Origin: Alphaproteobacteria bacterium
GTDB taxonomy: Bacteria; Pseudomonadota; Alphaproteobacteria; UBA2966
Assembly (NCBI GenBank): GCA_018654745.1
Contig: JABILA010000025.1
Location: forward strand, 1-64,000
Reading direction: 5' to 3'
DNA: 64,000 nucleotides
Positions 9,394 to 54,200 of this stretch are shown piece by piece. How positions within the stretch are numbered: position 1 is the stretch's first letter; each line of letters begins with the position of its first letter. The notes under the pieces were generated by a model. The model did no database searches. It was not told the origin of the DNA and saw nothing but the letters and a program-made list of their open reading frames with translations. The position numbers were made by a program, and so were the translations under genes.

Positions 9394-10014
9394 TCAGCTA
9401 CGTGGCGTCGCACCTGCCTGGGTCAGTAATTGTTCGAGTGCTTCATATTGTTGGGCCCCCACAACACCATAGCCACCGGAGACAAATGTAGGTACGCCGG
9501 TAACGCCATAGGCTCTCGATTTATCCCAGTCCTTATCGACAGCGTCGCTGAAACTACGGCTTTTCAATACTTCGGCAGCCTGGTCGCGCGGCAATCCGGC
9601 AGCCTCGATTATTTCCAGAAGCGAATCGACATCAGCGAGATTTCTTCCATCGACAAAATAGGCTTTGTTCATGGCGTCATGGATTACATCACCATCATCC
9701 AGTGTCTCAGCCCATTTACCAAGTTCCTGGGCAAGACGGCTGTTGTAGGTATGAGTGCGTTGGCCATAGGCCAGGCCTTCCTCATCCATCAACCCCTTCA
9801 TCCGATTGAACATGGCCTCGAGATCCATGTCGCGACCGGCAAAGAGTTGTTCCAGAGATTGACCTTCCATAGGCGTCTCCGGATGCAAGGGAAAATGAAC
9901 CCACTGCACTTCGATATCAAAATTCCGCTTCAGTTTTTCTATACGCCCGGTACAGAGATAACACCACGGTCAAACGTAATCGGAAAAAATTTCCAGAATA
10001 ACAGGCTCTGACAT
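9394..10014 (-). CDS. DsbA/FrnE-family thiol oxidoreductase, probable selenoprotein (U-P-W-C)
   Basis: A thioredoxin-fold protein of the DsbA/FrnE group, about 206 residues. From the ATG at 10014, behind GGGGAG five bases upstream, the frame reads MSEPVILEIFSDYV-[TGA]-PWCYLCTGRIEKLKRNF and continues unbroken to 9394. The TGA is codon 15, exactly where the first Cys of the CPWC active site belongs; everything either side is typical (EIFSDYVCPWC, then VQWVHFPLHPETP and the cis-Pro loop GVTGVPTFVSGGYGVVGAQ). A hairpin after the TGA fits a SECIS element. Annotation from the GTG at 9909 would lose the active site. Alternatives are a nonsense mutation or a sequencing error. It has no signal peptide, so it is probably cytoplasmic. 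No selA, selB, selC or selD gene is in this window. Confidence 0.8.
9938..9956 (-). promoter_or_regulatory. Candidate bacterial SECIS hairpin
   Basis: Reading the coding strand after the TGA, a 7-bp stem TCTGTAC/GTATAGA (one G-U pair) closes a five-base loop CGGGC. The loop starts 21 nt after the TGA and has G at its second position. Bacterial SECIS elements need a short hairpin within the coding sequence right after UGA, with a G in the first two loop positions and the loop roughly 16-37 nt downstream. The fit is good; SelB binding is inferred. Confidence 0.65.
9970..9972 (-). other. In-frame TGA, probable selenocysteine codon
   Basis: Codon 15 of the FrnE-like gene, at the first position of the CxxC redox motif. 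Selenocysteine replaces exactly this kind of catalytic Cys in known bacterial thiol oxidoreductase selenoproteins, including DsbA-like ones. Confidence 0.75.
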
Positions 10015-10152
10015 CCCTGCTCCCCATTCAGTAAAGTATCATTTCACTTTCACAAGACAAGCGGCGCGGTGTGCGAACCACCCGCAAATCCTGAACAACA
10101 ATGACATGCTTGCCTGCTGGCAACAACCCGGTCGCAGCCATGATCTGATCAG

Positions 10153-49506: not shown

Positions 49507-50901
49507 ATGTCCGTTCAGAGCATTTCTACCGGCGTCGCGTCTACGATTGAAGAGATCCAATCCCTGATTGGAGATCGTCTGTCGACGGCCCTGGCTGTAC
49601 GTGAGCATCACGGCAAGGATCTGTCGCATCACCCACTCCAGGCACCTGATGCTGTAGCCTTTGCCGAGAGCACAGAAGAAGTGGCCGCGATCGTGCGGAT
49701 TTGCGCCCGCAACAAAACGCCGATCATTGCCTACGGGACAGGTACATCGCTGGAAGGTCATATCACCGCTGTTCAGGGTGGAATTTGTGTTGACGTCAGT
49801 AACATGAACGAAATCCTGCGCGTGGGTCAGGAAGACATGGATGTCACATTGCAGCCTGGCGTCACCCGCAAGCAATTGAATGAACATTTGCGCGACATGG
49901 GATTGTTTTTCCCCGTCGACCCTGGTGCTGATGCCTCACTGGGTGGCATGACCGCAACCCGGGCGTCGGGCACAAATGCAGTGCGCTACGGCACGATGCG
50001 CGAAAATGTTTTGTCGATGACCGTTGTGATGGCTGACGGCAAGATCGTGCGAACAGCGCGCAGATCGCGAAAGTCATCTGCCGGTTATGATTTAACAAGG
50101 CTGATGGTCGGATCAGAAGGCACACTGGGTATCATCACAGAGGTGACCTTGCGCCTGTACGGAATTCCAGAAGCTATATCAGCGGCTGTGTGTACGTTTG
50201 AAAATCTTGAGGGTGCTGTTGATACCGTTATCCAGACAATCCAGATCGGCATCCCCATCGCGCGCATAGAATTGCTGGACGATGTGCAGATGGACGCGAT
50301 CAATAAATATTCAGGTCTTGATTATCCGGCGAAATCAACTTTGTTCCTCGAATTCCACGGATCAGATCACAGCGTCAAGGAACAGGCCGAAATGGTTCAG
50401 GATCTGGCCTCGGAAAACGGCGGCGGCGATTTCCAGTTTGCGACCAGCACAGAAGATCGCAGCAAATTGTGGCAGGCGCGGCACGACGCCGCCCATTCCT
50501 GCAATGCACTGCGGCCTGGCTGTGTCCTGTGGGCGACAGACGTTTGTGTGCCAATTTCACGCCTGGCAGAATGTATCCACGAGACCAAAAAAGATCTTGC
50601 GACCGCTTCCATGCCAGCGCCTCTGGTTGGCCATGTGGGAGACGGTAATTTTCATCTTTGCTTCATTATCGACCCGGACAAACCCGAAGAAATGGCAGAA
50701 GCGCAAACTTTGAATGGGCGCCTGATCGACCGGGCACTGGATATGGATGGCACCTGTACCGGTGAACATGGCGTTGGTCTGGGCAAAATAGCCTATATGG
50801 AACGCGAACATGGCGAAGGTATTTCCGTCATGCGGGCCATCAAAAAAACCCTCGACCCGGATAACATCATGAACCCCGGCAAAATTATTTCAATGAATTA
50901 A
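49507..50901 (+). CDS. FAD-binding oxidoreductase (D-lactate dehydrogenase/glycolate oxidase-like)
   Basis: 464 residues of the FAD-linked oxidase superfamily (PCMH-type FAD domain, about 40-220, with PIIAYGTGTSLEGHITAVQGG and LGGMTATRASGTNAVRYGTMRENV) and the C-terminal cap with GHVGDGNFHLCFIIDP and CTGEHGVGLGKIAYMEREHG, where the catalytic His/metal residues lie. Closest in pattern to cytochrome-linked D-lactate dehydrogenases. It is preceded by a 180-bp intergenic region and stands alone, so the physiological substrate (D-lactate or another 2-hydroxyacid) is not settled. Confidence 0.88.
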   Translation: MSVQSISTGVASTIEEIQSLIGDRLSTALAVREHHGKDLSHHPLQAPDAVAFAESTEEVAAIVRICARNKTPIIAYGTGTSLEGHITAVQGGICVDVSNMNEILRVGQEDMDVTLQPGVTRKQLNEHLRDMGLFFPVDPGADASLGGMTATRASGTNAVRYGTMRENVLSMTVVMADGKIVRTARRSRKSSAGYDLTRLMVGSEGTLGIITEVTLRLYGIPEAISAAVCTFENLEGAVDTVIQTIQIGIPIARIELLDDVQMDAINKYSGLDYPAKSTLFLEFHGSDHSVKEQAEMVQDLASENGGGDFQFATSTEDRSKLWQARHDAAHSCNALRPGCVLWATDVCVPISRLAECIHETKKDLATASMPAPLVGHVGDGNFHLCFIIDPDKPEEMAEAQTLNGRLIDRALDMDGTCTGEHGVGLGKIAYMEREHGEGISVMRAIKKTLDPDNIMNPGKIISMN

Positions 50902-50927
50902 GGCTATTTGGGCTTGATCAGAGTTTT

Positions 50928-51113
50928 TCAGTTTTCAGGTTTATCCAGTTCATGCCCATCTAACTTGCTGATCTGACTACTTTTATCAGCCTTGTCCTTT
51001 TGCTTTTCCACCTTGGTCCGGCCGTGAAGGGTGCGATTCTGCTCTGCCTGTTGCCGCTTTCTTTCGCGGCTCTGGTTTTTGCGAAACTTGTTCAGGTTTA
51101 CAACTTCAGTCAT
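50928..51113 (-). CDS. DUF4169 family protein
   Basis: 61 residues, mostly charged: VVNLNKFRKNQSRERKRQQAEQNRTLHGRTKVEKQ is the DUF4169 pattern (NLNKFRK then N.R..GRTK.EK), a small alphaproteobacterial family of unknown function. The basic, Q- and R-rich sequence suggests nucleic-acid or ribosome contact, but this is not shown. Confidence 0.9.
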   Translation of the reverse strand: MTEVVNLNKFRKNQSRERKRQQAEQNRTLHGRTKVEKQKDKADKSSQISKLDGHELDKPEN

Positions 51114-51249
51114 CTGACCGGTCAGCTTTCATTCAGTCGCAGGAAATACGGACAGGCGATTTAATACCGTACCGTTTCCGGTTATATTACCGGATAATAT
51201 TGCGACCCCTGGTAAAAGGGTCTGATCAGAATACTGCAAAGAGGCTGCT

Positions 51250-54200
51250 GTGAAAAAGGCGTTATTTATTGTTGTTGGTCTTGTTGTCCTGGCCATAGGT
51301 GCTGCTCTGGTCGTGCCAGGTATGATCAACTGGAATGACTACAGATCAGAAATCGCGGCAAAAGCACGGGAAGCCACCGGCCGCAGACTGGCCATCGACG
51401 GTGATATTGGCTTCACCATTCTACCAACACCAGCCTTACAAGTCAGCCGCCTCCGCCTGGCAAACCTGCCCGGTGCCGCTGTACCTGAAATGGCAACAAT
51501 AAGCAGCCTGGAAGTTGAAGTCGCCCTGATACCTCTTATCAGCGGCGAAATTCAGATAAATCGTGTCCGTGTCGTCAAGCCGGTCATATCTATCGAAGTC
51601 CTTGCCGATGGACGCGCAAACTACGACTTTGGCAGTAGCGGTACCAGCAACAAGAACAGCGACGGCAATACTGATTTAAGCCTGGACAGCCTGGTGATTG
51701 AAGACGCCAAAATCACCTACATTGATGCAAAATCCGGCCTGGGCGAAACAATAGAAGGTTTGAGCGCCGAGTTATCAGCTGGATCCCTAAGCGGTCCGTT
51801 CAAAGCTGAGGGTCGATTGACGGCACGAAACCTGACCACGACGTTCAAGGCTTCCACAGGCGCTTTGAATACCGGACGATCGATACCATTGAATCTGGCC
51901 CTGGGTCTGGCAAATGGTGCCGGAACAATGTCCTTCAAAGGCAGCATCAGTCAGGCAAGTGCCGAGGGCATTCTGAAAGGAAAGCTGGTCGTCACAGCAC
52001 CGGATGCCCTGACCCTCGCCCAGGCATTGCAGCCGGTGACAGGGTCCGAAGCACCGGAATTACCTGCCCTGAAACAGAAGCTTTCTATCAATGGCGATAT
52101 TGAAGCCAGTGCCAAATCAGCAGCACTGAATAATATTGTTACCAAAATCGGAGAAACCACTGCAGCCGGTGCGGTTAGCGCAAGCTTTGACAAAGCCCTG
52201 AATGTCGACCTGGCCCTGGATGTAAATCGGGTAAACCTGGACACCTGGCTTCAACCGGCACCCGAAAAAGACTCAGCGAATGTGACGGCGAACACGGAAA
52301 CCGATCAACCTGCAGCGCCATTTGCGATCCCGGCAGATATCTCAGGCACCGCAGCCTTGACCGTCAGCGGTATCACCTGGAAAGGCAGCGCAATCCGTCA
52401 GGTTGAAGCCGCTGCGTCGGTTGCCAAAGGTGTTGTGAATATTGAAAAAATTGCCGCCAACCTGCCGGGTGGTGCGAACATCGATCTGGTTGGAAATCTT
52501 CAGGCCAAGAACAAACTGCCGCAATTTGAAGGCGCTGTCCGGGCTTCTGCCGATAATTTACGTGCCTTTTTGAACTGGGTCGGCGCTGATATCTCCAGTG
52601 TTCCCATGGATCGTTTACGGTCTTCATCCCTATCTGCAACCGTTCGCGCGACGCCAAAACTGGCCGAAGTCTACGGTATCGATTTACGCCTGGACTCAAC
52701 AAAGCTGACGGGTGGTGCAGCCTATGCGTTTCGCAAGCGACCGGCTTTCAGCGTCGATTTCGCCATCGATCAGTTGAACCTCGATGTCTACCAGAAAAAG
52801 CAACCAGCTGAAAAACCAAAAGCAGCAACAGGATCGCTGCTGTCGCCACCTTCGGGCAAGCTACCGCCTGATGTTGCCCGGATGCTGAACGCTTTTGATG
52901 CCAACCTGAAACTGGCCGTCAAGAAATTCACCGCCAACGGCGTTTCCATCAAAGGTGCCCTTGTTGACGTAGGCTTGCTTGGTGGCGATTTAACAGTTCG
53001 CAACATTCGAACAGATGATCTTGGCGGTGCAAAATTTGCCTTTCAGGGTAAGGCCAGTGATCTGGGCGGTAAACCTGTCGTTGATGGCCGTCTTGATTTG
53101 CAAGCCAACAATGTTCAGGGACTGACACGCCTGGCTGGTATAACATTGCCGGTACCTGCGTCGAAACTGGGCCGCTTCCACGCCGCCGGACGCGTCAAAG
53201 GTAGTGGTGACGCCATATCAGTTGACCTGACCGTTTTGGCTGCCAGAACCTCCACGGCCTTGAAAGGCAACGTTTCCATGAACGGGGCAGGCCCTCGTTT
53301 CGACATGGCAATTACGGCCTCCAACAACAGTTATGTGAATTTATGGCAGATTTTCGACCCTGGTTTTCGCATGGCCACGGGTGGCAAGGATGGCCCACTT
53401 AACCTGACAGGCAAGATCGACGGTGATCTTACTCTGATCAACCTTGACCTCAAGGCCCGGTTGGGGAACGCGAGGATAACAACAGCGGGCAAGCTCAAGC
53501 CTCTATCGGGGCCCGGTTATACTTTGGCCTTTTCTGCCGGGCATCCGAATGCGCCCGGATTTCTCCAGGGGTTGGGCATTGCCTACACGCCTGCGGGTCG
53601 CAATTTTGGTGGCTTGGCGCTTAAAGCCCAAATCTCCGGCGACAGCGAAACTGTTGGCATCAAGAACCTGAAAGGGAACTTTGGTCCGCTGGCCATCGCA
53701 GGCAATGTAGCCGCGTCATTTATCGGCCAGCGTCCATCCATTGCTGCCGAAGTGCAAACCAGTGAGATTTTCGTCGACCTTTTCCTGCCGCGTGGATCTG
53801 ACGGCGCGAAATCAAATCGTTCAGGAGGAGGAACGACAGGCAAAGGGGTTGAGCGCTGGTCCTCCGACCCCATCGACCTGAGTGCATTGGGTAGTGCTGA
53901 CATTAACATCAGCTTGACAGCACCTGGCATAATCTATGGGGCTTACGAGTTCGGAAAGCCTGCTGTCACTGCCATACTGAAAGACGGGGTTCTACGCATT
54001 GACCCACTGAAAGGCAAACTATTTGATGGTGACGTTGCCCTGACAGCCCGGATCGCAGATGGCCAGGTTCCGGCTGTTGATCTGGCCCTGGCCGTTACCG
54101 GTGGTAACCTGAAAAAAGCCCTCTTGCAGGCGGCACAAATTGATGCGGCGACCGGCACTGTCCGGATCGATGGCAAGTTTTCCACCCGCGGCCACAGTCA

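Follow-up and report, generated by a model that had tools for sequence, protein, structure and literature searches.

Selenoproteins of the DsbA-like type (COG2761), in which selenocysteine (Sec) is part of a UxxC motif, were reported from the Sargasso Sea by Zhang et al. 2005 (PMC1088965), recur under the name 'DsbA 1' in the Global Ocean Sampling survey (PMC2398784) and are included in current reviews (PMC9312934, PMC13188914), the latter of which names them 'DsbA-like protein form 1'. For the Alphaproteobacteria, a 2006 survey knew formate dehydrogenase as the only selenoprotein (PMC1794560). The closest solved relative, by sequence, of the protein described here is FrnE of Deinococcus radiodurans, for which isomerase and insulin-reducing activity has been reported, together with sensitivity of the frnE mutant to cadmium and diamide; FrnE has also been predicted to be cytosolic (PMC8945050). 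A C-terminal CXXXXC motif of the D. radiodurans protein has been proposed to regenerate its active site, and this motif is common, but not universal, among FrnE proteins, being absent in those of D. maricopensis and S. roseofulvus (PMC8945050). Here, we describe an alphaproteobacterial frnE-like gene in which a TGA at codon 15 replaces the first Cys of the CPWC motif of its relatives and, based on comparative sequence evidence, is very probably read as Sec.

On the minus strand of the window (i.e., the whole stretch of 64,000 nucleotides analysed), the frame that starts at the ATG reads MSEPVILEIFSDYV-TGA-PWCYLCTGRIEKLK... and is open to its own stop, with the codon-15 TGA as its sole internal stop (Table 1). 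In contrast, an ORF finder run on the window offered only the GTG start at 9909, that is, a 171-aa fragment that lacks the active site, and standard annotation would truncate or discard such a gene, with the same loss. The frame described in the earlier note (GGGGAG, ATG at 10014, a single TGA at codon 15, about 206 residues), as well as its remark about the GTG product, proved exact on the sequence. A purine-rich GGAG-type site is similarly placed in most TGA homologues. The read-through product matches PF01323 (DSBA) over residues 7-197 with 119.9 bits (vs. a curated cut-off of 25.6), and the residues invariant in the aligned homologues include D12, Y13, residue 15 (Cys or Sec), P16, W17, C18 and V174-P175, the last pair probably forming the cis-proline loop that faces the active site in DsbA/thioredoxin folds. 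It is important to note that the gene itself terminates at a TGA as well; hence, any recoding at codon 15 must be site-specific. The neighbourhood of the gene gave no functional hint, as its neighbours in the window (rodA, mrdA and an alpha/beta hydrolase gene) recur beside the homologue only in the nearest relative (L002).

Table 1. Coordinates of the frnE-like gene and its features within the window.
Feature	Position	Strand	Remarks
frnE-like (DsbA-family) gene, predicted selenoprotein	9394..10014	-	206 residues, predicted Sec at residue 15; PF01323 match, read-through frame, fold
Gene's own stop codon, TGA	9394-9396	-	
Shine-Dalgarno-like GGGGAG	10020..10025	-	5 nt upstream of the start codon (ATG, 10014)
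In-frame TGA, predicted to be read as Sec	9970..9972	-	Codon/residue 15, first position of U-P-W-C
Codon 18, predicted resolving Cys of U-P-W-C	9961..9963	-	Invariant, 32 aligned homologues
Candidate bacterial SECIS hairpin	9938..9956	-	7-bp stem UCUGUAC/GUAUAGA, apical loop CGGGC; homologue comparison
Val174-Pro175	9490..9495	-	Invariant in alignment

The TGA is not peculiar to this genome. Among 80 homologous public loci, codon 15 was TGA in 15, TGT in 35 and TGC in 30, and TAA or TAG in none; that is, the alignment proposed in the earlier note returned Cys in the other homologues. A survey of the class (385 genomes) provided 15 strong matches, sister species and a single-contig genome among them, all of which had a single TGA in frame within the gene, placed at codon 15 in each of the 10 loci inspected. 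These two sets share genomes (sister species at least) and are, consequently, not fully independent. In a phylogenetic tree that left out codons 15-28 as well as the distant gamma-/deltaproteobacterial rows, the 15 alphaproteobacterial TGA genes formed one group (support 91/89), with the Cys genes L019, L036 and L039 among its nearest relatives. When the distant rows were included, these long-branched sequences fell inside the TGA group, and their omission restored a single group. The downstream frame is intact in the sister genomes, which carry the same TGA, and pN/pS values are closely similar between TGA and Cys genes, both after the hairpin described below (0.323 vs. 0.321) and in codons 2-14 (0.252 vs. 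0.265). The match means that normal protein selection acts on the frame both before and after the TGA.

Two sequences outside the alphaproteobacterial TGA group are worth describing. In the Caenispirillum Cys gene (L039:964-1569), the TGT codon is followed, over the next 42 bases, by a sequence that closely resembles the SECIS of the TGA genes with two pairs broken, and selA was not found in the genome that carries it. An AU test rejected a common grouping of this gene and the TGA genes (P = 0.013); it is perhaps a Sec-to-Cys reversion, or perhaps represents the ancestral state. Further, a homologue of the delta/Myxococcota type (L079:178-771) also has TGA at codon 15 and lies far off on a long branch, which may reflect an independent gain or a transfer of Sec. 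The alphaproteobacterial TGA group, its Cys sisters and the Caenispirillum gene provide a natural series for the study of Sec retention and loss in a disulfide reductase.

The rule used in searches for bacterial SECIS hairpins requires a G among the first two loop bases and a distance of about 16-37 nt between the UGA and the loop. Consistent with this rule, the hairpin of the window gene, which the earlier note had not mentioned, is located within the coding sequence directly downstream of the UGA, has the loop G, and its loop begins 21 nt after the UGA (20 nt between). Across 20 distinct alphaproteobacterial TGA sequences, 98.6% of the cells were compatible with pairing, compared to only 24-47% for control structures slid along the alignment. 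In two pairs, both partners had changed (A-U to U-A in three sequences and U-A to C-G in five), and none of 500 shuffles reached the observed covariation score. Five of the seven stem pairs showed no both-sided change, meaning that the covariation signal comes from two pairs, among sequences that are related, and in two distinct alignment rows (Defluviicoccus genes) one of the pairs was replaced by an A-C mismatch. Synonymous identity in codons 17-24 was 0.85 in the TGA genes, the maximum of the gene, vs. 0.54 in the Cys genes; thus, the strongest synonymous constraint of the gene coincides with the hairpin, and does so in the TGA genes only. The minimum free energy of the window hairpin as a single sequence was ordinary (z of 0.44), and for some homologues a different fold of the 45-nt stretch was predicted to be more stable. 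Accordingly, the case for the SECIS is based on comparison rather than on folding energy.

The hairpin also coincides with a difference in the protein. Cys at residue 21 (9952-9954), which gives UPWCYLC, is confined to the window gene, L002 and L003; the other TGA genes have Ser. In these three genes, the stem change AGT to TGT (Ser21 to Cys21) is paired with a silent ATT to ATA change in codon 25; that is, the codon-21 change is one half of a compensatory SECIS pair.

The genome check proposed in the earlier note was also positive. selA (601 bits) and selB (452 bits) are adjacent on contig C12 of the same genome, a tRNA-Sec with anticodon TCA lies about 1.4 kb from them, and selD (429 bits) is located on contig C142. 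selA was found in 15 of 15 TGA genomes vs. 8 of 35 Cys genomes (Fisher P = 2.2e-7, 50 genomes, treated by the test as independent despite their relatedness). Of 14 TGA genomes in a second set, which overlaps partly with the first, 13 had selA, including 13 of 13 near-complete genomes, the exception being 77% complete. The tRNA-Sec (L091:1501-1595) lies outside selB and is encoded on the other strand, whereas a nested selC has been described in other Alphaproteobacteria (PMC8124441). A short stretch resembling the SelB C-terminus (C12:65793-65930) is found between selB and the tRNA-Sec.

Alternatively, translation might stop at codon 14, with a truncated protein being made from the GTG at 9909, the 171-aa frame of which is mechanically open. 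Such a product would be without the entire CXXC motif; moreover, codons 2-14 are conserved in the TGA genes (pN/pS 0.25), a ribosome site precedes the ATG at 10014, and codon 15 is TGA, never TAA or TAG, with the hairpin and the Sec machinery accompanying the TGA. Hence, we consider truncation very unlikely. The possibility that the TGA stems from faulty sequencing or assembly, or from a nonsense mutation that recently turned the gene into a pseudogene, arises from the draft status of the genome (155 contigs) and is lower still, to the point of being negligible: many genomes that were assembled separately have this TGA, and a single-contig genome is among those with one in-frame TGA in the gene, which excludes both error and a recent null mutation, and a pseudogene is additionally incompatible with the ordinary purifying selection on the downstream frame.

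It could also be that the UGA specifies an amino acid other than Sec, through a changed code, a suppressor tRNA or programmed cysteine insertion. Some bacteria do recode UGA as Trp. However, genes of this genome end naturally at TGA, including the frnE-like gene itself and a thioredoxin; the relatives carry Cys, not Trp, at codon 15; and tRNA-Sec (TCA), selA, selB and selD are all present, with selA tracking the TGA. We find this explanation as improbable as truncation. Decoding as Sec, which the earlier note had called probable, is instead strongly supported by the recurrence of the TGA, the single TGA group, the Sec machinery, the hairpin and the purifying selection taken together.

The genome appears to encode additional selenoproteins. 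A deiodinase/AhpC-like frame on the plus strand of C12 (L131:1356-2003; about 81356-82003 of the contig), about 11 kb from selA, has a TGA in the context 'EFGSFT-U-PYC' and is a probable second selenoprotein, while a TlpA/AhpC-like gene of about 373 residues on the minus strand of C47 (L133:507-1628; about 50507-51628), with TGA in 'ATWASW-U-GC', is a probable third. Kinds similar to both appear in a review table of selenoproteins (PMC13188914). A TGA match on C125 was rejected as a selenoprotein, being an ordinary thioredoxin that ends at its stop; a search of the genome for SelW-like proteins (PF10262) gave none, and no further convincing case emerged when the window was loosely screened for other TGA codons close to thiol motifs. 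Neither the formate dehydrogenase-like genes found in the genome nor its selD contain an internal TGA, although, with the genome about 95% complete, absence of a Sec formate dehydrogenase is not proven.

An AlphaFold model of the protein had a mean pLDDT of 95.9, and its five best PDB matches were all D. radiodurans FrnE (TM 0.85-0.90). The only Cys residues of the protein are 18 and 21, and no signal peptide is obvious by eye, which suggests a cytosolic location. Based on the fold match, the invariant residues, this Cys content and the apparent lack of a signal peptide, we infer that the protein is likely a cytosolic disulfide reductase/isomerase. Under the Sec reading, SelB with Sec-tRNA(Sec) would bind the hairpin shortly after codon 15, and Sec would be inserted at the UGA in place of termination; Sec15 of U-P-W-C would then act as the nucleophile and Cys18 as the resolving residue, so that disulfides are reduced or isomerised, probably in oxidative-stress defence. 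The lower pKa and higher reactivity that the earlier note expects of the U-C pair would follow from general selenium chemistry. Since the C-terminal CXXXXC motif is missing, re-reduction would likely depend on an external reductant, e.g., thioredoxin or glutathione. It is also tempting to hypothesize, at about even confidence, that FrnE is a long-standing selenoprotein of this alphaproteobacterial group, that the hairpin shapes the neighbouring protein (Ser21 to Cys21, giving UPWCYLC, with the silent change in codon 25), and that redox proteins like FrnE are what the Sec machinery has been retained for, even though no Sec formate dehydrogenase was found in the genome.

In comparison with the solved relatives, the protein is about 30% identical to D. 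radiodurans FrnE (DR_0659; PDB 5cnw, 5cp1, 5coh) over 210 positions, and the CPWC active site of the latter is at the place matching UPWC here. D. radiodurans FrnE differs in having Cys where the window protein has the predicted Sec, in being about 40-50 residues longer and in its C-terminal CXXXXC. SCO1869 of Streptomyces coelicolor (PDB 3gl5) has a DsbA/FrnE-like fold as well (E of 1e-16 by sequence, TM 0.89); it is more distant than D. radiodurans FrnE and, by its entry title, not a selenoprotein. The known DsbA-like selenoproteins share with it the Pfam family (COG2761/PF01323), the first-position Sec in UxxC and a bacterial SECIS downstream. We take COG2761 to be the FrnE group; the name FrnE was not found in the selenoprotein literature searched. 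That is, UxxC DsbA-like selenoproteins are already known and the window gene is a further example of them, and the novelty implied in the earlier note was too high given the catalogued cases (PMC1088965, PMC2398784, PMC13188914). While those reports consist of metagenomic sequences or one representative accession, what is new here is a genome-resolved group, with its genomic context, SECIS covariation, co-occurrence with selA and fold match.
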